Shown piece after piece: positions 52,953-64,000 of a stretch of DNA of 64,000 nucleotides (its first letter is position 1; each line of letters begins with the position of its first letter). Source of the DNA: Granulosicoccus antarcticus IMCC3135 (lineage in GTDB: Bacteria > Pseudomonadota > Gammaproteobacteria > Granulosicoccales > Granulosicoccaceae); NCBI RefSeq assembly GCF_002215215.1, contig NZ_CP018632.1, positions 1,794,501-1,858,500 of the forward strand, written 5' to 3'. The translations under genes were made by a program, and so were the position numbers. The notes under the pieces are model-generated. The model did no database searches. It worked only from the letters and a program-made list of their open reading frames with translations, and had not been told where the DNA came from.

Positions 52953-54083
52953 ATGATTAAGAAGTACTTTGCGATGACTATCATTGCGGCCAGCGTCTCT
53001 TTAGCAGCATGTTCAGATGACGATGATGATGACGGTTTAGATCCGGTAGATCCAGGTCCTATTGCTGTTACTGCTGAAGGCACTGCATACGACCTGATCG
53101 CGGCTTCTGCCGATCACACAACACTGCTCAGCATGATCGATACTGCTGGTCTGGATGCAACGCTTGACGCTGAAGCAGCAACTTTCACTGTTTTCGCACC
53201 AAACGACACTGCTTTCGCAAACTATGATGCTGCAGTTGCCGCAGGTGTTGCGACTACTGAAGACGATACAGACGATCTGACTCCTCTGGCTGACTTCACA
53301 GAAGCTCAGGTTTCTCGAATCCTGATGAACCACGTAGTTTCTGGTTCTGTTGAAACTCTTGAAGATGCAGCTGTACTGAACACACTGGCAGCGGCTGATG
53401 ATTCTGTTGACCCAGCTCTTGTTGCTCAAACTCTGACAGCTAGCATCAGTGCTGAAGGTGTTACAAGCGTCATGGCTATCGGTGGCGAAGCAGTTGCCGT
53501 TGATGCGACTATGGTTGGAACAGAAGTTGATGCTGTTGAACAGGACATCGTTCATTCAGTAGGCGCTATCCTGATGCCTAGCGATTTGCCTTCTGCTGAA
53601 GAAGTGATCGTAGATCCAGTAGATCCAGGCAATGGTGAAGGTGGTGAAGTTGCAACAGGTGCATTCGCAACGTTGGTTGGGTCTGACTACACAACTGCTG
53701 TAGCGGCTCTGGATGCTGCATATGGTGCAGGAACTTTTGATAACGCTGCCTGGACTTTGTTTCTGCCTAGTGATGCAGTACTGGCCGCTGCAGAACCTGC
53801 GGTTGCTTCCCTGACTTCTGCAGAAATTGATGGACATCTGCATACAACAGCATTGGATGAAGCTGCACTGGCGGCTGTAGTCGACGGTTCAGGTACTATT
53901 CTTTCTGCCAGCAGCACAGCTACACCTGCCACTATCGCTATCACTACTGATGCCGATGGCAACACTCTGGTTGGTGGATTTACAGTGACTTATCTCGGTA
54001 CAGTTGCCGCTGATGATGAAGCTGCTACTTCAGGCGGCGCTCAGGTTTATGCCATTGATGGAATTCTTCCTGCGGCTGAGTAA
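52953..54083 (+). CDS. Fasciclin-domain (FAS1) lipoprotein
   Basis: A 376-residue protein. The signal peptide MIKKYFAMTIIAASVSLAAC ends in a lipobox (LAAC). An acidic run DDDDDDGLDPVDPGP follows. Two FAS1 domains span about residues 45-210 and 240-375. The first has ATFTVFAPNDTAFANYDA (H1 box) and ILMNHVVSGSVETLED, ending DIVHSVGAILMP (H2 box). The second has TLFLPSDAVLAAAEPAV and QVYAIDGILP. A second acidic VDPVDPGNGEG linker separates them. FAS1 proteins mediate cell adhesion or carbohydrate binding; this one should sit on a membrane facing outwards. Very rich in Asp, Ala, Thr and Val. Confidence 0.9.
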   Translation: MIKKYFAMTIIAASVSLAACSDDDDDDGLDPVDPGPIAVTAEGTAYDLIAASADHTTLLSMIDTAGLDATLDAEAATFTVFAPNDTAFANYDAAVAAGVATTEDDTDDLTPLADFTEAQVSRILMNHVVSGSVETLEDAAVLNTLAAADDSVDPALVAQTLTASISAEGVTSVMAIGGEAVAVDATMVGTEVDAVEQDIVHSVGAILMPSDLPSAEEVIVDPVDPGNGEGGEVATGAFATLVGSDYTTAVAALDAAYGAGTFDNAAWTLFLPSDAVLAAAEPAVASLTSAEIDGHLHTTALDEAALAAVVDGSGTILSASSTATPATIAITTDADGNTLVGGFTVTYLGTVAADDEAATSGGAQVYAIDGILPAAE

Positions 54084-54216: not shown

Positions 54217-54314
54217 TTGTGTGCCTGAAATCGTAAAGTGCCACTTGATTGCGATCAGTGGCCCATTCAGGCCGTTTCTCTTTTCCGGCTTACATTCAAA
54301 CTGACGAGTTTTGC

Positions 54315-55481
54315 ATGACGATCTGTATTAACGATAAATTCGACAGTGGCAACATTGAGGTTGTCTCTGCCCAGGATCCAGCATCCATTCAGTTGAAAAT
54401 TCGAAAGGACACGAATTCCGAATTTCTTCAGTGGTTTCATTTCAGCGTATCTGGAGTCGCTGGCAAGCAATGTCGCATCAGCATTGTCAATGCTGGTGAT
54501 ACCGCCTATCCCGGTGGCTGGAAGGGCTACGATGTGGCCACCTCGATTGATCGCCAATTCTGGTATCGCACCCCTGCGGAGTACGATGGCCAGCAATTGA
54601 CGTGGACATTTGAAGCGCAAAGCGACGTCACATGGTTTGCCTACTTTGCTCCCTATTCTCTGGATCAACATGCTGATCTGATAGCTGCGGCAGCCACTGC
54701 CGATGCTGTCGAGTATGAGAGCCTGGGTGTCACTCATGAGGGGCGTAGCATCGACTATCTGAAGGTATCGGCGCTGCCCGCTGACGCTGCAAATGATCAT
54801 GTCAACCAGCAACGCAAGCAACTGTGGGTGATCGCGCGCCAACACCCGGGCGAATCCATGGCTGAGTGGTGGATGGAGGGCTGGCTGGATCGGCTTCTTG
54901 ATCAGGATGATGCTAGTAGCCGAGCCTTGCGTGCTGTTGCCGATATACATGTGGTACCGAACATGAACCCGGATGGCTCCTTCCTGGGCAATCTGCGTAC
55001 CAACGCCCTGGGGGTCAATTTGAATCGGGAGTGGGCATCACCCAGTCTGGAGAAAAGCCCTGAAGTCTTTCATGTTCGTCAGCGCATGGAGCAGACCGGA
55101 ATCGATCTGTCACTGGACGTGCATGGGGATGAGGCCTTGCCTTACAACTTCATTGCAGGCACCGAAGGGATAGCTGACTGGTCAGATGTGCGCGATGCTG
55201 AGCTTGTGGCGTTGAAACGAACATGGGCAGCATTGAATCCTGATTTTCAGGATGTTCATGGGTATCCCAGAAGTGGATCTGGACAGGCGAACCTGACAAT
55301 CTGCAGTAATAATCTGGCACACAGCTTTGGCTGTCTGGCAATGACACTGGAAATGCCCTTCAAGGATACGCTGGATACACCGCGGCCCTTCAATGGCTGG
55401 TCGGCGGAGCGAAGCATGCGATTGGGGGCCTCGTTCGTCGATGTTGCTCATCTGGCTCTGACAGGTCGTCTGTTGAGCTAA
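54315..55481 (+). CDS. M14-family zinc carboxypeptidase (cytosolic carboxypeptidase-like)
   Basis: A 388-residue protein with an N-terminal beta domain (ICINDKFDSGNIEVVSAQDP onwards) typical of cytosolic carboxypeptidases. The M14 catalytic domain carries zinc ligands in ARQHPGESMAEW (His and Glu) and SLDVHGDEALP (His), substrate-binding NMNPDG and LNREW, and the catalytic Glu in TLEMPFKD. Bacterial members are uncharacterised; eukaryotic ones remove C-terminal Glu from proteins. The ATG at 54315 gives the family N-terminus; an in-frame start 66 bp earlier has no support. No signal peptide, so cytoplasmic. Confidence 0.88.
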   Translation: MTICINDKFDSGNIEVVSAQDPASIQLKIRKDTNSEFLQWFHFSVSGVAGKQCRISIVNAGDTAYPGGWKGYDVATSIDRQFWYRTPAEYDGQQLTWTFEAQSDVTWFAYFAPYSLDQHADLIAAAATADAVEYESLGVTHEGRSIDYLKVSALPADAANDHVNQQRKQLWVIARQHPGESMAEWWMEGWLDRLLDQDDASSRALRAVADIHVVPNMNPDGSFLGNLRTNALGVNLNREWASPSLEKSPEVFHVRQRMEQTGIDLSLDVHGDEALPYNFIAGTEGIADWSDVRDAELVALKRTWAALNPDFQDVHGYPRSGSGQANLTICSNNLAHSFGCLAMTLEMPFKDTLDTPRPFNGWSAERSMRLGASFVDVAHLALTGRLLS

Positions 55482-55623: not shown

Positions 55624-57102
55624 CTACTGAAAGGCGGTTTCGAAAAAGCTTCTGAGTTTTCTGGAGTGGAGACGCTCTGATTTCATCTCACTGAGTTTAC
55701 GCAAAGCCAGCATGCCTATTTCCAGATGCTGTGAGACCTGGTTCTGGTAGAACTCGGTTGCCATGCCTGGCAATTTGAGTTCTCCTTGTAGTGGTTTGTC
55801 GCTGACGCAGAGCAGGGTGCCGTAGGGTACGCGCAAGCGAAACCCATTTGCTGCAATGGTGGCAGACTCCATATCCAGCGCAATGGCTCTGGATTGAGAC
55901 AGGCGGCGTACTGGCTCTCGCTGATCCTGTAGTTCCCAGTTGCGATTGTCGATGGAGGCAACGGTGCCTGTGCGCATGATACGTTTCAATTCATAGCCTT
56001 CAAGGCCGGTAACGTCTGCTACAGCGCCTTGCAGAGCCTGCTGGACTTCGGCTAGTGCCGGAATCGGAACCCAGACCGGGATGTCAGCATCCAGTACCTT
56101 GTCTTCGCGAACATAGGCGTGTGCAAGCACGTAGTCTCCCAGTTCCTGGGAGTTTCTCAGGCCTGCGCAATGACCCAGCATCAGCCAAGCGTGAGGTCGC
56201 AAGACAGCGATATGGTCGGTGATGGTCTTGGCGTTGGATGGGCCCACTCCAATGTTGACCATCGTTATGCCGCGGTGCTTGCTGGACTTCAGGTGGTAGG
56301 AAGGCATCTGCGGTTGTCGGGATGGGGCTGTGCCCGAGCTGGGCTCGGACTCACCATTCAGGGTGATGACATTGCCTGGTTCTACAAAAGACTCATAGCC
56401 TGAATCGCCATCTTTCATCATGTCGTGTGCCAGGCGACAGAATTCATCAATATAGAACTGATAGTTGGTGAACAGGACATAGTTCTGAAAATGCTCAGGC
56501 TCTGTCGCTGTGTAATGCACCAGTCGATGCAGCGAGTAGTCGATGCGTTGTGCGGGAAATGGAGCCAGAGGCATGGCCAGGCCTGGTTCTACTTCTAGAG
56601 TGCCGTTGACGATGTAGTCATTGACCTGCGCAATGTCGGGCACATCGAATGCATCACGCAGCGCGACAGTAATCTTCTGCGGTCGATGTACGGCGAGAGC
56701 TGAGCCGGATTCCAGAGCAAAGTGCAGGGGGATGGGGACATCGGATTCGGCAATTTCGATCGGTTCCGCGTGATTTTCAATCAGCAGGCTAAGCTGGTGT
56801 ATCAGGTAGTCGCGAAACAGTTTCGGCTGTGTGATCGTTGTTGTGTACAGGCCGGGTTGGTCAACATGTCCGTAAGACAGTCGTGAATCGACGCGCGCAT
56901 AGGTGCTGTTGCGGAATCGTATCTCTGGGTAGAAGGCGCGATGTTTGGTGTCTGGCAGGCTGCCGCTTAGGTATTTGGCAAAGGCATCTGCAAGAAAGGC
57001 GGTATTACGCTCATACATTGCGATAAGACAATCTACCGCCTCTGTGGCGTTAGTGAAACTGATTGCCTTCTGGGGTGGTGGGGTCGTTAAATGTAGTGTC
57101 AT
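55624..57102 (-). CDS. amn: AMP nucleosidase
   Basis: A 492-residue enzyme hydrolysing AMP to adenine and ribose 5-phosphate. The N-terminal regulatory domain includes RVDSRLSYGHVDQPGLY. The C-terminal nucleoside-phosphorylase-like domain has TMVNIGVGPSNAKTITDH, WLMLGHCAGLRNSQELGDYV, ALDMESATIAANGFRLRVPY (Met-Glu substrate contacts) and LCVSDKPLQGELK. The length fits proteobacterial Amn. It is the last gene of the minus-strand set that includes the exporter and two ATP-grasp genes, 44 bp after the exporter. Confidence 0.94.
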   Translation of the reverse strand: MTLHLTTPPPQKAISFTNATEAVDCLIAMYERNTAFLADAFAKYLSGSLPDTKHRAFYPEIRFRNSTYARVDSRLSYGHVDQPGLYTTTITQPKLFRDYLIHQLSLLIENHAEPIEIAESDVPIPLHFALESGSALAVHRPQKITVALRDAFDVPDIAQVNDYIVNGTLEVEPGLAMPLAPFPAQRIDYSLHRLVHYTATEPEHFQNYVLFTNYQFYIDEFCRLAHDMMKDGDSGYESFVEPGNVITLNGESEPSSGTAPSRQPQMPSYHLKSSKHRGITMVNIGVGPSNAKTITDHIAVLRPHAWLMLGHCAGLRNSQELGDYVLAHAYVREDKVLDADIPVWVPIPALAEVQQALQGAVADVTGLEGYELKRIMRTGTVASIDNRNWELQDQREPVRRLSQSRAIALDMESATIAANGFRLRVPYGTLLCVSDKPLQGELKLPGMATEFYQNQVSQHLEIGMLALRKLSEMKSERLHSRKLRSFFETAFQ

Positions 57103-57146
57103 TGCAGCTCCGCTTGAATTCTTGGGCAGGATAGCACGGCTGATAA

Positions 57147-58391
57147 TCAGTCCTTGTCTGAATAACGCAGGTAGATCAGCGACAGCAATCCGGCCGGCAC
57201 ATATAAATACTGGAGGGCCAGATCATGAGGGATGGGTATGACGAGCAATGCGGCGCCTAATATTAAAAAGGTCAGGCCAAGAAAGATCTGGGACAGATAG
57301 CTCTTGATCAACAGGTATTGCATGCTGCCGTTAGTTCTGGCGACATCAAAAAAACGCTTGTTGAAGGCCAGTCGAAAAAATGATGAGAAAAACGTAATGA
57401 AGATGAGAGCTATCCAGAGGCTCGCCCCCTCGGATTCAGTGTTCAGCGTGAAGCGCAGAAGCCATGAGGCAAGGTAGAGCCAGACGGCTGCGCGGTAAAC
57501 CCGTGCTATGTCGAGTTGGTCTATACGGTTCTTGACGAGATAAAACAGAGCTGCAAACACGAGTGCCAGAACGACGACGGCGATTCCTAATCGGCTGAAA
57601 TCCTCTCGCACCATGAGAAACAATGTCAGCGTCCAGAAATGGCTTTCCAGATAAAGAAATATGCCATCTGACAGAAAGACGGCTCTGGAGCCTTGTCCAT
57701 CCTTGTGTGCCAGGCTGCGTAATATGGTTACCGGCTTTGCCAGTGTTTCGGGGTCAACGATAGGTTGTTGGCCGGGAGGTTGCGTGGCAAGGTGTCGACT
57801 GGAGGCTAGGCTGATGCCTGCCGAGAGGGCCAGTAACCAGATCAAGCCGCCGGTTTCCAGAAGGGTTCCACCCAGCAGGATGCCAATCTTGAGAATCAGG
57901 GTGACGAAAATCTGAAAATTTCCATATTGACGCCCGGTATCGTTACTTCCCAGTTGTCGCAAGAACAGCGTGCGTTGGCTAGTCCAGAAAAATGCGTTGT
58001 AAAAGCCGTTTGCCATACCGATAACCAAGGCGGCAAAGCATAACTGTGCGGTAGTAACGCTTAATGTGCCATCTGGTGGGGTAAACAAGGCAGCGCCCGG
58101 GACTTCAGTGAGCAGGCCGACGCTGGCAATCAGCAAAAATTCCAATGCGAAGGTCAGGCTGATCAGATGCTTCATTGGCCAGCGTCGTGCCATGCGCTGC
58201 CAGAGGCTCAGGGCGGCAGCAAATGACAGGCCGGAAACCCCTACGAGTAGAGAGAGCCCAGCAAGGTCGAGTCCTTTTTGCCACAGGTAGACCGGCAGGA
58301 AGAAAGGCAGCAGGCCTATTAGTAGAGAATGTGCGCCCAGGAACTGATAGAAGTAGCCAGTTGCGGAGCGCGCCGAGGGCAGGTTCAACAC
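57147..58391 (-). CDS. MFS-type membrane transporter
   Basis: A 414-residue integral membrane protein with about 11-12 hydrophobic segments (for example LLIGLLPFFLPVYL, GLSLLVGVSGLSFAAALSL, LISLTFALEFLLIASVGLL, IAVVVLALVFAALFYLV, IFLGLTFLILGAALLVI). A basic loop RMARRWPMK after the second segment is in the usual MFS position. The substrate is unknown. It starts at GTG 58391 (TTG next). It lies 73 bp after two overlapping ATP-grasp genes on the same strand and could export what they make. Confidence 0.75.
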   Translation of the reverse strand: MLNLPSARSATGYFYQFLGAHSLLIGLLPFFLPVYLWQKGLDLAGLSLLVGVSGLSFAAALSLWQRMARRWPMKHLISLTFALEFLLIASVGLLTEVPGAALFTPPDGTLSVTTAQLCFAALVIGMANGFYNAFFWTSQRTLFLRQLGSNDTGRQYGNFQIFVTLILKIGILLGGTLLETGGLIWLLALSAGISLASSRHLATQPPGQQPIVDPETLAKPVTILRSLAHKDGQGSRAVFLSDGIFLYLESHFWTLTLFLMVREDFSRLGIAVVVLALVFAALFYLVKNRIDQLDIARVYRAAVWLYLASWLLRFTLNTESEGASLWIALIFITFFSSFFRLAFNKRFFDVARTNGSMQYLLIKSYLSQIFLGLTFLILGAALLVIPIPHDLALQYLYVPAGLLSLIYLRYSDKD

Positions 58392-58464
58392 GGTAGTACC
58401 CAGATTAGGTGCGCTGTCATTGAGTTACTGGAGTCGCATATTTCCAGAACTGAGAGAGAGAAAC

Positions 58465-59373
58465 TCAGAAAGTATCCGAGTCGGTAACGATCAATGCGTC
58501 CATCTGGTTGTAGAAATCATCCAGATTCTCTCGCTGCCCATAACGCGGAGCGTTGTGCATGCGTGTGTAGGGGCGTGAATTGACTTCCAGGAAAATGCAT
58601 CGTTGTTCCCGGTAGTCCTTTTCGATGCCCTCTTCGAATATGACATCGATACCAAACAGATTGGCGTCAAAAGCGCTGATAACCTTCAGGAACAAGTCAC
58701 GATTGGCAGCCGGAATAGTGGCTTGGTCAATGACTTCGATAACGCCACCAGGTGCCAGTGCAATGCGGTTGAAAGTGTGAACTCGTTCGCCTTCAGCAGG
58801 GATCGAATTCAGGGTTTTACCCTGCTTGCGCAGAAAATCAATAGTCGCCTGTGATTTCTGGATGGGATGAACCGTAGGGTATAGCCCCATATCTTCGCGT
58901 ATTTGATTCTCCGCATCGATCAGTGTACTGATTGTGTCCTGACCGTTGCCATCAACGAAGGGCGGGTAGCGGCGTATGACAGAGACCATCGCATCGCCAG
59001 TTGCCAGCACCCTGTAGTTATTGCCCAGCAGGTATTGCTCCACGATGCTGGTTGGCCACCAGACCTTGACCATCAGAGCCGCTTTCCAAAGTTCGCGATA
59101 GTTGTTGATCGGAAAATGGCTGCCACGGGAGAAGCCGCTGACATTTGGCTTGATGCACAGTGGGAAGCCGTGTTCGCGAGCGAAACGGTGTGCGGTCCAG
59201 GGATTGAGGAAGAGCGTGCCTTTGGCGTGCGGAATGTCATGCCGGGCAAACATTGCACGCGCCTGCTTTTTGGAGCGGCTGGCCTTTCTGACCTGAAGCG
59301 AGTTGTAGTTGCTGCAGCCAGCCATGTACTTCTGGCTGATCCAGCTATAGATCAGCGTCTTGAGTGATTTCAC
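58465..59373 (-). CDS. ATP-grasp ligase (cyanophycin-synthetase-like)
   Basis: A 302-residue ATP-grasp protein. KASRSKKQARAMFARHDIPHAKG is the entry helix seen in CphA/GshAB enzymes. FPLCIKPNVSGFSRG is the ATP-binding Lys and glycine loop, IVEQYLLGNNYRVLATGD the second Lys/Glu strand and FGIDVIFEEG...IFLEVNSRP the Mg-binding Glu/Asn. ATP-grasp ligases join a carboxylate to an amine or thiol through an acyl phosphate. It starts at a GTG overlapping the previous stop (GTGA), so it is coupled to the second ATP-grasp gene. The substrate is unknown. Confidence 0.8.
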   Translation of the reverse strand: MKSLKTLIYSWISQKYMAGCSNYNSLQVRKASRSKKQARAMFARHDIPHAKGTLFLNPWTAHRFAREHGFPLCIKPNVSGFSRGSHFPINNYRELWKAALMVKVWWPTSIVEQYLLGNNYRVLATGDAMVSVIRRYPPFVDGNGQDTISTLIDAENQIREDMGLYPTVHPIQKSQATIDFLRKQGKTLNSIPAEGERVHTFNRIALAPGGVIEVIDQATIPAANRDLFLKVISAFDANLFGIDVIFEEGIEKDYREQRCIFLEVNSRPYTRMHNAPRYGQRENLDDFYNQMDALIVTDSDTF

Positions 59374-60242
59374 GGTTGTATATAACGCTCGCCGATCTTG
59401 TGGGTTGATTTGCTGGTCGCTGATTGGCCTGGCAGCGAACTGTTGCGACCGTATAGCATCATGCGAGCAAATATCGGTTGCGGATTTTCTACCGGTTTGA
59501 TCATTTTGGTAGCGCGGGCAAGAGACATCATGGAGCTTCGGATGAATCTCCAGCGTTCTGCCCAGCTGAATGATTTGTCCAGCAGGTTGATAGGCATTGG
59601 CAAGAAAAGATTGATTTCAATGACGTGGAAGTTGCCTGCCACCAGCTCTTCATTCGAATCCGCCCGGGCGCTCATGCGGCAGATGCCAAACTCACCGATC
59701 TGTGAAAGAAAGTTTGCGAGGGTGGTTTGTGCCTCTGGAGAGAATTGTGACGTGATGTCAACGTATTGAGTGTGGTGGTTGTTCTTGCTGTTGATTGGGA
59801 ACTGTTCACGCTCATTGACAGCTTCAGTCACCGTCATTACGTCATGTGTACCGTCTGTGCGATTGGCGTCGATGCTGAATATTTCATACTCACGCTTGCC
59901 CGTTGCTGCCTGTTGTACCAGGTAGCGTTGTGGTTCGTTCGAAAGGGCTGCTCTCAGGCTGATCAGTTGTTCGTAGTCGTCGACTCGATGAATGCCATGC
60001 GCATTTTGTCCCCACTCGGGTTTGAAAAATACCGGGAAAGTGCTGGGGGTCAGCGTCTCTGAGTCGATGCTCTGGGGTAATCGCCAGCGATCGGGAATCA
60101 GGGAATCAATGGACAGTTTTGAAAAAATGCCGTGTTCCGTAGAGAAATAACGGGCATTCATCTGCCAGTAGTGCCACGGAGCGGCACCAATCCGCAGACA
60201 GGAGAGTATGTAGGTTACAACCATGATGATCGTGATGTGCAT
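59370..60242 (-). CDS. Second ATP-grasp-like protein
   Basis: A 290-residue protein beginning with a hydrophobic stretch (ITIIMVVTYILSCLRIG). The ATP-grasp-like core is FPVFFKPEWGQNAHGI (Lys plus Gly loop), QRYLVQQAATGKREYEIFSI and FHVIEINLFLPMP (Glu-Ile-Asn metal site). It is more diverged than its neighbour and may be a partner subunit or a second ligase. It overlaps the next gene by 4 bp. Its own start (60242) is the first ATG; later in-frame ATGs exist, so the N-terminus is uncertain. Confidence 0.7.
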   Translation of the reverse strand: MHITIIMVVTYILSCLRIGAAPWHYWQMNARYFSTEHGIFSKLSIDSLIPDRWRLPQSIDSETLTPSTFPVFFKPEWGQNAHGIHRVDDYEQLISLRAALSNEPQRYLVQQAATGKREYEIFSIDANRTDGTHDVMTVTEAVNEREQFPINSKNNHHTQYVDITSQFSPEAQTTLANFLSQIGEFGICRMSARADSNEELVAGNFHVIEINLFLPMPINLLDKSFSWAERWRFIRSSMMSLARATKMIKPVENPQPIFARMMLYGRNSSLPGQSATSKSTHKIGERYIQP

Positions 60243-60544
60243 TGAGACCTACCGCTAACTCCGAGATTTTTGGGAGGGCGATGCCCTCAACCCCTAATAT
60301 TACCTTGTCATGTGGTGTAACTGCCACAGAATAAGCGCCTTTTAGCGTCTTGCAATGTCCTTACTCTGGACGCTTGCCGATTGCTTTTACGCCGTGCTCC
60401 GTACTGTGAGCGGGATTAAATGGGATGGTTCCCCAGATTTTGTCACCGCTTGTAGCTCCAGTAAGTAACAATTGGCTTGGACTCTAGCCTATTTTTCTCG
60501 AATAGCGAGTCACTTGAAAGCTCTTCAGGTTAAAAATTCAAGTG
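60243..60544. other. Intergenic region
   Basis: About 300 bp upstream of the ATP-grasp genes on the minus strand. It should carry their promoter; I see no confident promoter boxes, ORF or repeat. Confidence 0.4.
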
Positions 60545-61084
60545 TCAGGGCAGGCTGATAGTCAACTCACCGCGGCGCTGAGTCAGATCGTAGTGTCGTA
60601 GGAACTCCATGCCCAGCAAGGCTGTGAAACCTTCCAGAGACGGGTTGATGTGTGCGCGAACGTTACGTTGCGTAAACGGGCCAATGGAGAGTGAGTCCAG
60701 TTGTGTGGAAAACACTTGTGCCGTGCCGTTAGCGGTCAATACGTTGAATCGACGACCTCGTTCCAGGCCTGACCGTCTGGCAACGACGTCCGACAGGCTG
60801 ATGCCGGTCGCGCCAGTATCGATGAGAAAGGTAACGGGTTGATCGTTGACCAGGCCTTCCAGCTGATACTGGCCGTACCGATCAGACTTGAGCCGCAGGG
60901 TAGGGGAGGCACCATTTTGAGACGTCCATTCGGGTGCATTGTTCATTAGACGATTGTCTAGCATGCGCTGCGCGAGCAGGGTTCCACCGCCCAGTATCAG
61001 CAGCCAGAGCAGCACAATCATCCAGCCTGCGATGGTCTTACCAGAATCATGTGATGAATCGGTCTTGCTATCTGACATTAGCAT
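60545..61084 (-). CDS. Membrane-anchored retropepsin-like aspartic protease
   Basis: A 179-residue protein with one N-terminal membrane segment (WMIVLLWLLILGGGTLLA, about 21-38) and a periplasmic single-lobe aspartic protease domain. VTFLIDTGATGISLSDVVA holds the catalytic Asp-Thr-Gly, and ALLGMEFLRHYDL is the hydrophobic-hydrophobic-Gly strand. This is the clan AA, TIGR02281-like family, which would act as a dimer. The natural substrate is unknown. A second ATG at 61078 is a possible start. It is divergent from the EF-G gene. Confidence 0.85.
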   Translation of the reverse strand: MLMSDSKTDSSHDSGKTIAGWMIVLLWLLILGGGTLLAQRMLDNRLMNNAPEWTSQNGASPTLRLKSDRYGQYQLEGLVNDQPVTFLIDTGATGISLSDVVARRSGLERGRRFNVLTANGTAQVFSTQLDSLSIGPFTQRNVRAHINPSLEGFTALLGMEFLRHYDLTQRRGELTISLP

Positions 61085-61306
61085 CCCAAAATTGGGTAGA
61101 ATTGTGGGTTTACCGCGTCAGGCACCTTCTTTAGCGACTCTGCACCTGTCTGGCGGGACTGATGGTACATATGCTTTATGTGTTCCAGCCTTGGTCCTGC
61201 CCAGTGCGAGTTGGCTTCAGACTGTTCCTAGTTGCGGACTTCAGCAAGGTAACGTCCGGGCATTATCAAACAGCCGGGCCATTAATCCCAGACCGTGAGC
61301 ACCAAG

Positions 61307-63391
61307 ATGACTGACCTTTCACACTACCGCAACATTGGCATCTTTGCCCACGTTGATGCGGGCAAGACCACTACCACAGAGCGAATCCTGAAGCTCACGG
61401 GCAAGATACACAAGACCGGTGAAGTACACGATGGTGAAGCTACCACTGACTTCATGGCTCAGGAGCAAGAGCGCGGAATAACCATCCAGTCAGCGGCGAC
61501 CAGCTGCGAGTGGGACGGTCACCGATTCAACATCATCGATACTCCGGGACACGTTGACTTCACTATCGAAGTTTATCGTTCCTTGAAAGTACTCGACGGT
61601 GGTGTGGGTGTTTTCTGTGGTTCTGGCGGTGTTGAGCCCCAGTCCGAAACAAACTGGCGTTATGCGAATGAATCTGAAGTAGCACGTGTAATCTTCGTCA
61701 ACAAGCTGGATCGCATGGGCGCTGATTTCTATCGCGTCGTCAAGCAGGTGAAGGACGTGCTGGCTGCTCGTCCCGTCATCATGACTCTGCCAATCGGCAC
61801 AGAAGATGACTTTGTGGGCGTTGTGGATCTGCTGACCGAAAAGGCATGGATCTGGGATGACTCTGGCAATCCTGAGAGCTACACGCTCGAAGATGTGCCT
61901 GAAGACATGATCGAGATCGTCGCCAAGTACCGTGAAGAGCTGATCGAAACTGCTCTGGAAATGGACGATGAAGCTATGGAGAAGTATTTCGAAGGCGAAA
62001 TACCTGACATCGCTACCATCCAGAAGTGCATCCGCAAGGGCACAATCGACCTGGTCTGGTTTCCTGCTTTCTGTGGTTCTGCGTTCAAGAACAAGGGTAT
62101 GCAGCCCATGCTCGACGGTGTGGTTGCCTATCTGCCTAGCCCGACTGAAGTCAAGCCACAACCTGAAGTGGATCTGGAAGGTGTTGAAACCGGTAATTTC
62201 GCGATTGTTGATCCCGACAGGCCTTTGCGTGCACTGGCGTTCAAGATCATGGATGACCGATATGGCGCTCTGACATTCATTCGCATCTACTCAGGCAGAA
62301 TTGCGAAGGGTGATACGGTTCTCAATACTTTTACGGGTAAGACAGAACGAATCGGTCGTATCGTTGAAATGAACGCTGAAGACCGTATCGAGCTGGATTC
62401 TGCACAAGCGGGCGATATCGTCGCTGTATTGGGCATGAAGAACGTTCAGACAGGTCATACACTGGCCGATCCGAAGCATCCTGCCACACTTGAGCCTATG
62501 GTTTTCCCTGATCCGGTCATCTCGATTGCCGTATCACCGAAAGACAAGGCGGGTAGTGAGAAACTGGGTGTTGCCATTGGCAAGATGGTTGCCGAGGATC
62601 CTTCTTTCCGCGTCATGACTGACGAAGAAAGTGGTGAGACGATTCTGATGGGCATGGGTGAATTGCACCTGGACATCAAGATCGACATTCTCAAGCGTAC
62701 TCACGGTGTTGAAGTTCAAGTGGGCAAGCCTCAGGTGGCTTACCGCGAGACAATTACACAGAAGATCGAAGATACTTACACTCACAAGAAGCAGTCTGGT
62801 GGTTCTGGCCAATACGGTCGTATCGACTACACCATCGAGCCGGGTGAGCCAGGTACTGGTTTTGAATTCGAATCCAAGGTTACAGGTGGCAACGTGCCAC
62901 GTGAATACTGGCCAGCGGTCGAGAAAGGCTTCAAGCTGTCCATGCACGAAGGTGTATTGGCGGGTTATCCATTACTCGACTTCCGCGTCGTTCTGACCGA
63001 TGGTGCCTTCCACGCAGTCGATTCAAGTGCGCTGGCATTTGAAATTGCTGCCAAAGGTGCTTACCGTCAGTCTATTCAGAAGGCAGGTCCTCAGATCATC
63101 GAGCCGGTCATGAAGGTAGACGTGTTCACACCAGATGATCACGTGGGTGATGTAATCGGTGACCTTAACCGTCGTCGTGGCATGATCAAGTCACAAGAGC
63201 CAGGTGCTACCGGTGTTCGCATCAAGGCAGACGTACCTTTGTCAGAGATGTTTGGCTACATTGGTGACCTGCGTACCATGACTTCTGGTCGTGGTCAGTT
63301 CTCCATGGAGTTCAGCCACTACAACCCTTGTCCGAAGAACGTTGCGGACGTGGTTATCAAGGAAGCTCAGGAACGCAAGGCTGCGAAGTAA
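61307..63391 (+). CDS. fusA2: Elongation factor G, second type (EF-G2)
   Basis: A 694-residue translational GTPase. G1 [15 protein letters not shown], switch [15 protein letters not shown]3 [15 protein letters not shown] and G4 [10 protein letters not shown] are intact, followed by domains II-V ([13 protein letters not shown] and [20 protein letters not shown]). Residues such as [17 protein letters not shown] fit the second EF-G found in some gammaproteobacteria rather than the str-operon copy. It stands alone with its own terminator and no rpsL/rpsG/tuf neighbours. The ATG at 61307 is preferred to GTG 61295. Confidence 0.9.
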
Positions 63392-63510: not shown

Positions 63511-64000
63511 TTAGAAGTCGATGATCGAGGCTTGCAGGGCCTTGGCGACTGCGTGCAGGCGATTGGCCGCATTAAGCTTGCGAGTGGCATTGCGCAAGTG
63601 ATAGATAATGGTGCTCTCGGTGACGCCCAGTATCTGGCTGATCTCCCACGAAGTCTTGCCTTTGGATGCCCATTCCAGGCATTCACGCTCTCGTGCACTG
63701 ATCTGTCCATCACCGGTTTGATGACAGTTAGCGCTGTTATTACGATCCCGGACGCTATTGCGCGGGATTATTGTTGGCATTGCCCAGTCTGTGCCTTGTT
63801 CATCAGCAGGTTTGGCAAGCATGTTGTTGATCATGTTCATGACTCGCTGGGCGGCATGCTCGCCAATACGTGCCAATGGCTGTCGTATTGTGCTGAGAGT
63901 CGGTCGGGTGTGAGCGGCGGCGCACAGATCACCACAACCCAGGATCGACATGTCGTGTGGCATGCGAACACCGTTCTGCTGGCAGGTGCTGAAAGCGCCC
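63511..64000 (-). CDS. Regulator with LacI-type sensor and C-terminal LuxR HTH (partial)
   Basis: The 5' end runs off the window. The visible part begins in a LacI/periplasmic-binding sensor domain: GAFSTCQQNGVRMPHDMSIL, then GCGDLCAAAHTRPTLSTIRQP and IGEHAAQRVMNMI, which is the usual C-terminal end of that fold. After a linker rich in Asn and Arg comes a complete LuxR-type HTH: ISARERECLEWASKGKTSWE, then ISQILGVTESTIIYHLRNATRKL. LacI proteins normally carry their HTH at the N-terminus, so a C-terminal LuxR domain is an unusual arrangement. The likely effector is a small molecule, probably a sugar. It is convergent with fusA2. Confidence 0.8.
   Translation of the reverse strand, partial: GAFSTCQQNGVRMPHDMSILGCGDLCAAAHTRPTLSTIRQPLARIGEHAAQRVMNMINNMLAKPADEQGTDWAMPTIIPRNSVRDRNNSANCHQTGDGQISARERECLEWASKGKTSWEISQILGVTESTIIYHLRNATRKLNAANRLHAVAKALQASIIDF

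Follow-up and report, generated by a model that had tools for sequence, protein, structure and literature searches.

In a 64,000-nucleotide stretch of the Granulosicoccus antarcticus IMCC3135 genome (the window), two coupled genes for ATP-grasp proteins are followed by a gene for a transporter of the major facilitator superfamily (MFS). In the reading that we favour, with confidence that is about evenly balanced, the pair and the transporter form a conserved, horizontally mobile pathway by which a small amide, either a pseudopeptide or an amino-acid conjugate, is made and transported; in at least some lineages hypotaurine or taurine is a likely component of this amide. The three genes are all encoded on the minus strand. 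The upstream gene (60242–59370) encodes a diverged, Ddl-like ATP-grasp protein of 290 residues (Ddl). It is followed by a gene with a GTG start (59373–58465) for a CphA-like protein of 302 residues (CphL) that consists of an ATP-grasp domain only; the stop of the former and the start of the latter overlap by 4 bp in a GTGA (59370–59373). The MFS gene (58391–57147; 414 residues) begins after a gap of 73 bp. An earlier note on this DNA had described the overlapping pair with the MFS gene next on the same strand, and this arrangement was confirmed. The genome consists of a single contig of 7,783,862 bases. In the following, cassette denotes Ddl, CphL and the linked transporter gene, and L and G numbers denote loci and genomes of the comparison set, respectively.

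Co-conservation of the pair, which the earlier note had named as a test, was found at class level. CphL was matched with at least 403 bits in 11 of 369 genomes (22 more genomes match at no more than 115.5 bits), three of the 11 being of one genus, and Ddl was found at E ≤ 1e-8 in the same 11 genomes only, adjoining CphL in all of them. In the eight cassette genomes outside the family the flanking genes differ and the pair is kept, with an MFS gene in seven and a VTT-like gene in one. A contig scan for CphL gave 61 named loci, of which 30 were classed as Granulosicoccaceae. Ddl lies near CphL in 59 and MFS in 58 of the 61, and the linked transporter gene of the earlier note is present in most loci. 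The Granulosicoccaceae loci hold Ddl in 29 cases (L154 is at a contig edge) and MFS in 28, and the 31 other loci hold Ddl in 30 (one partial, L180; L173 is at a contig edge) and MFS in 30 (L193 is at a contig edge). The distances of Ddl, CphL and MFS are correlated over 54 loci (Mantel r of 0.905, 0.840 and 0.853), with none of 999 permutations as high. The −4 spacing of the ligase genes recurs in many relatives but not in all; spacings range from overlaps to 603 bp (L171) with open reading frame (ORF) starts set mechanically. Within Granulosicoccaceae 29 of 36 genomes (57 genomes searched) have both ligases and none has only one, with the two genes on separate contigs in G025; the seven genomes without the pair include G011 (63% complete) and G034 (80%), the other five being 88–100% complete. 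The joint occurrence in the family and in the class goes beyond chance. Gene order between EF-G and AMP nucleosidase is mostly kept within the family, and such synteny by itself would prove little.

Named holders of the cassette include Endozoicomonas, Parendozoicomonas, Moritella, Psychromonas and Spongiihabitans, as well as two Thermodesulfobacteriota metagenome-assembled genomes (MAGs) and one Gracilibacteria MAG. In the midpoint-rooted CphL tree the two Thermodesulfobacteriota rows and a gammaproteobacterial row (L195) are placed inside a supported gammaproteobacterial set, a placement that involves three long branches and MAG bins possibly containing foreign contigs. Because the Thermodesulfobacteriota sequences sit among gammaproteobacterial rows, the tree suggests that the cassette was transferred between phyla. 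The Gracilibacteria contig (L199:4623–8057) carries DoxX, Ddl, CphL and MFS genes; CphL and Ddl read through with TGA as Gly (code 25), and in alignments under the standard code 11 of the 22 in-frame stops face a Gly of the query. The tree position of this CphL is unsure, its branch being long. The order of G358 is probably Thioglobaceae, with clam and mussel symbionts of reduced genome size among its members; G434 of this order has 1,022,154 bases, and its cassette locus has 30.0% G+C. Among the order-level relatives of G278, a DNA scan that covered only three genomes found just G278 itself.

CphL belongs to the ATP-grasp superfamily by domain homology. Residues 15–284 match TIGR02068 (cyanophycin synthetase) with 132 bits over model positions 194–462 of 862 only, far from the whole-protein cut-off of 850, and the best relative in the Protein Data Bank (PDB) is CphA1 (PDB entry 7wac; 87.3 bits), through its ATP-grasp G domain. 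The closest named relatives are from Granulosicoccus (86–87% identity). The ATP- and Mg-binding residues Lys75, Arg121, Asp243, Glu263 and Asn265 are kept in 80 of 80 sequences and Lys35 in 79 (one gap). A passage of PMC9427784 names Lys220, Lys261, Arg309, Asp431 and Glu450 in TeCphA1, to which Lys35, Lys75, Arg121, Asp243 and Glu263 of CphL are equivalent, and states that Glu215 of CphA1 touches the cyanophycin side chain. Glu215 is replaced by Arg in 79 of 80 CphL sequences, Lys293 is not retained, and the P-loop positions 263–269 read NV[SG]G[FY]SR in nearly all of them, unlike in CphA1. We read this as retention of the ATP chemistry with loss of cyanophycin recognition, because the ATP- and Mg-binding residues are conserved and Glu215, Lys293 and the P-loop are not. 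Judged by its length of 302 residues, CphL also lacks the Mur-ligase and N domains of CphA1. Cyanophycin synthesis was rejected, as the Mur domain is absent and the specific contacts are lost.

An ATP-grasp structure of the diverged protein had been the other test named by the earlier note, and the predicted model bears it out. Ddl matches PF07478 (Dala_Dala_lig_C) with 27.1 bits (cut-off 24). Its AlphaFold2 model, from 57 sequences, has a predicted local distance difference test score (pLDDT) of 88.4 and a predicted template modelling score of 0.85, and shows an ATP-grasp fold preceded by a helix of hydrophobic sequence (residues 2–18). Structural comparison in VIA-align gave Z scores of 14.9 to LysX/ArgX (PDB entry 5k2m; root-mean-square deviation 3.4 for 213 aligned residues), 14.5 to synapsin III and 13.6 to CphA1 (PDB entry 7wae), and Foldseek returned 463 matches at E ≤ 0.001, headed by D-Ala-D-Ala ligases and synapsins. 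Lys42, Lys74, Glu118, Glu120, Glu209 and Asn211 are invariant in all 57 rows. Ddl shares the PF07478 match and the fold with the D-Ala-D-Ala ligase and LysX/ArgX/RimK group but differs in lacking the pre-ATP-grasp domain and the Mg-binding Asp, and in having 9–18% identity in the rows shown. Assignment as a D-Ala-D-Ala or resistance ligase was rejected (21.7 bits to TIGR01205 against a cut-off of 245.65). A profile–profile comparison of the CphL and Ddl families gave no useful match. The partial gene in L180 (L180:5108–5389; Desulforhopalus MAG) is a C-terminal piece before CphL and represents either a broken gene or an assembly fault.

The MFS protein of the window scores 22.9 bits against MFS_1, below the cut-off of 33.4, and 45 of 54 scanned family members match this profile (E ≤ 0.01). 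Its AlphaFold2 model (pLDDT 92.0) matches LacY (PDB entry 2y5y; Z score 26.9) and also SLC19, NorA, Spns2 and others, so that fold and family profile together place it in the superfamily; these fold matches span importers and exporters. In the order of G358 a VTT-like protein takes the place of the MFS protein (VTT match of 30.5 bits, below the cut-off of 33.9).

The earlier note had called this arrangement the minimal layout of a small peptide or amino-acid-conjugate pathway, an interpretation that is supported in part. The pair with its transporter does recur, but the layout is incomplete: a DoxX-like gene is often added in other genomes, and a decarboxylase and a cysteine-dioxygenase-like cupin in some lineages. 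These partners are invisible in the window because the DoxX-like genes of this genome lie away from the locus and no cysteine dioxygenase was detected in it. Among the 31 loci outside Granulosicoccaceae, a DoxX-like gene occurs in 25 (downstream of the cassette in L181), a YHS gene in 16, a DinB gene in nine, and a decarboxylase and a cupin in one each. Outside the window Ddl often follows DoxX by 4–309 bp. Two members of the DoxX-like family are below the Pfam DoxX_2 cut-off (19.6 and 20.8 against 26.3 bits), and three others give no DoxX match. At class level a match to the DoxX-like protein at E ≤ 1e-8 was obtained in 18 of 369 genomes. Matches of at least 193 bits, a cut-off chosen after the list was seen (the next match has 104 bits), were found in eight of the 11 cassette genomes (not in G191, G301 and G393) and in one of 358 others (Fisher p of about 2e-13, a value that, like the other Fisher values here, disregards the relatedness of genomes). 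The lone genome of the latter kind, G373, is 71% complete and belongs to the same genus as the cassette genome G278; the other nine genomes, with matches of no more than 104 bits, are all without the cassette. In G000, G014, G018, G224, G278 and G328 the DoxX-like gene lies elsewhere in the genome, so that the link rests there on co-occurrence. YHS-domain genes were seen upstream of DoxX in many loci, and a DinB-family gene follows MFS on the same strand at L168:8237–8824 and in its relatives in several Endozoicomonas-type loci (DinB_2 match of 27.9 bits in L168, cut-off 24.8).

The candidate supply genes are clearest in the order of G358, where CphL was found in 22 of 83 genomes and 21 loci were read (20 and L128; a partial match in G448 was left out). 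A PF00282-type decarboxylase gene and a cupin gene stand directly before Ddl in 15 of the 21, and DoxX precedes them in 14 of these 15 (L237 runs off its contig). Overall, 18 of the 21 loci show DoxX and 20 show VTT, the rest being cut; contig ends truncate L240 and L241. The gene order in L195 is DoxX, decarboxylase, cupin, Ddl, CphL and MFS, and in L127 a decarboxylase gene precedes Ddl with no cupin gene. The decarboxylase belongs to the group of cysteine sulfinate decarboxylase (CSAD) and glutamate decarboxylase (GAD), and the best PDB match of the L128 copy is a CSAD (PDB entry 2jis). The L128 cupin matches PF05995 with 36.9 bits; at the positions that we take to be the three-His iron site and the substrate Arg of cysteine dioxygenase, HGHP and the third His are kept in 16 of 16 cassette cupins and the Arg in 15. 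Cysteine dioxygenase and cysteine sulfinate decarboxylase reportedly make up the bacterial taurine pathway, an account credited to Agnello in 2013. The same two gene families stand side by side in the cassettes and, unlinked to them, in G018 and G224. Unlike in that pathway, the supply genes of the cassettes stand with a pair of ATP-grasp genes and a transporter gene. The residues at the decarboxylase substrate motif differ as well, being W/S/C in 18 of 18 aligned cassette copies and W/S/Y in the two unlinked pairs. These unlinked pairs were located at L277:5532–7552 and L278:5924–7929 in two cassette genomes, and their cupins gave no Pfam match.

From the computed folds, residue conservation, linkage and co-occurrence we infer the chemistry, the substrates, the order of the steps and the direction of transport as follows. 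CphL would use ATP to convert a carboxylate to an acyl phosphate, which would then condense with an amine. Ddl, which its hydrophobic N-terminal helix probably tethers to the membrane, would make a second bond or act as the partner of CphL, and the MFS protein (or the VTT-like protein in one order) would carry the product over the inner membrane, possibly as an exporter. Where the gene set is complete, the cupin and the CSAD/GAD-type decarboxylase would provide hypotaurine, or taurine once this is oxidized, as one of the building blocks; the other lineages, including the organism of the window, would need another source of this amine or another amine in its place.

Several observations weigh against this reading. 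MFS was not found in two of the 30 Granulosicoccaceae loci (L152 and L166, the latter with only 917 bases downstream). In Ddl, position 191, which by motif we take to be the metal-binding Asp of D-Ala-D-Ala ligase, is Ser (39), Gly (10), Cys (5) or Ala (3) and in none of the 57 rows Asp, so that the Asp/Glu/Asn metal triad is incomplete, with Glu209 and Asn211 present throughout; as the usual Mg-binding Asp is missing, Ddl may not be a ligase. As to the hypotaurine part, the decarboxylase residues W/S/C match neither those of CSAD (F/S/Y) nor those of GAD (S/N/F) in the same alignment and do not identify a cysteine sulfinate decarboxylase. The meaning of the substrate motif F/S/Y is said to come from the same work of Agnello. 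The best PDB match of the L127 decarboxylase is glutamate decarboxylase 1 (PDB entry 3vp6). In the order of G358, L235 has the decarboxylase and no cupin, L224 has neither gene, and between DoxX and Ddl there is an 88-residue decarboxylase piece in L223 and pieces of 37 (decarboxylase) and 25 residues (cupin) in L234, the ligase pair being kept in both. With these remnants and absences, supply genes can evidently decay while the ligases persist. In the window genome a PF05995 search gave no match, so that no cysteine dioxygenase was detected (the controls were positive in two of 14 genomes), and the nearest decarboxylase has Y/T/H rather than W/S/C or W/S/Y. Within Granulosicoccaceae a decarboxylase was found at E ≤ 1e-110 in eight of 29 cassette and two of seven non-cassette genomes (p = 1.0), and at E ≤ 1e-60 in 13 of 29 and two of seven (p = 0.67). 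Decarboxylase and cassette are unassociated within this family, and the hypotaurine part does not reach the window genome; in view of the missing association, a universal need for the supply genes was no longer assumed. The class-level association (five of 11 cassette genomes against one of 358 others at E ≤ 1e-100) is not relied on, since one of the five is the Y/T/H protein of the window genome.

The missing Asp also bears on an alternative in which CphL is the sole enzyme, Ddl has the role of a scaffold or pseudoenzyme, and the product is a conjugate with a single new bond. The replacement in every Ddl sequence, set against Asp243 and Glu263 kept throughout CphL, argues for it, but the invariance of Lys42, Lys74, Glu209 and Asn211 goes beyond the needs of a mere scaffold, and we consider this the least probable of three unlikely alternatives. 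The hydrophobic helix of Ddl speaks for another alternative, a modification of the membrane or envelope in which membrane-anchored ligases join an amino acid or a hypotaurine-like amine to a lipid, which the MFS or VTT-like protein would then flip. DedA relatives transport lipids, the VTT-like gene that stands in for MFS in one order would fit such a function, and the DoxX-like protein would be a membrane partner. No lipid-acting enzyme was recognized in the unit, however, the MFS model shows likeness to solute carriers and not only to the lipid carrier Spns2, and the VTT match is below its cut-off; we rate lipid modification as improbable, ahead only of the scaffold alternative. A slightly better, still poor, chance is given to a low-molecular-weight thiol pathway, in which the ligases would make a glutathione-like amide and the DoxX-like, YHS, DinB and cupin neighbours would handle thiol or sulfur redox chemistry. 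CphL matches the GshF-type model NF002688 with 75.2 bits, DinB relatives act with thiols, and YHS and DinB-like genes accompany 16 and nine, respectively, of the 31 loci outside Granulosicoccaceae. Yet these genes are not universal and vary in position and strand, the DoxX assignment is below the Pfam cut-off or absent, a cupin, where present, would oxidize cysteine instead of leaving its thiol, and a dedicated transporter for an intracellular thiol is unusual.

Other known systems were also compared. Graspetide clusters pair ATP-grasp ligases with a transporter. The cassette likewise has two ATP-grasp proteins and a transporter gene, but the transporter is MFS rather than ABC and a non-exhaustive look recognized no precursor peptide; for want of a precursor the graspetide reading is not favoured. 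Seven ORFs of 20–73 residues on both strands touch the 302 bp leader upstream of Ddl, and none was recognized as a precursor in that look, in which conservation was not compared. Anti-phage defence and an RNA element were rejected after PADLOC gave no defence match for four proteins and Rfam none for 57000–61400.

The leader itself (60243–60544, minus strand) lies between a gene for a clan AA aspartic protease and Ddl and is partly conserved (mean column identity of 66% across five Granulosicoccus sequences). It may hold the promoter. Stretches resembling ATATTGCAAG recur in some rows of the Granulosicoccus alignment, and these repeats are a possible regulator site. Promoter and terminator scans did no better than chance, and the latter, itself at chance level, listed no terminator-like site from the ligase genes to the MFS start. 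The AMP nucleosidase gene follows MFS on the same strand at a distance of 44 bp. Elsewhere in the window, a gene for an M14 carboxypeptidase with the N-terminal domain of cytosolic carboxypeptidases (54249–55481; PF18027) adjoins a fasciclin-domain gene (52953–54083), and at 63511–63963 a small protein combines a LuxR-type helix–turn–helix (PF00196) with a piece of a periplasmic-binding-like domain (PF13377).

The earlier note had held that no known product fits, and literature searches in an open-access library, which lacks most subscription papers, gave no description of this gene set or of a matching pathway; the passages of PMC6509183 and PMC12585060 that were consulted do not describe it. 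A passage of PMC6509183 reports that a SUP05 bacterium grows on thiotaurine and not on taurine, which is neither for nor against the proposal.

The product of the cassette is likely to matter to the cell, since the pair and the transporter are retained despite changed flanks and span more than one phylum, genomes of about 1.0 Mb included. That the general product is a new class of secreted or membrane-bound hypotaurine or taurine amides, made by a dedicated ATP-grasp pair and possibly serving sulfur handling or host exchange, is a tentative extension that we regard as doubtful; if true, such amides would be common to free-living marine bacteria, animal symbionts with genomes of about 1 Mb and a recoded Gracilibacterium. 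The gene set suggests an undescribed small-molecule pathway, and the decarboxylase and cysteine-dioxygenase-like neighbours, unseen in the window, provide a concrete substrate hypothesis that makes an unknown metabolite of marine bacteria testable.

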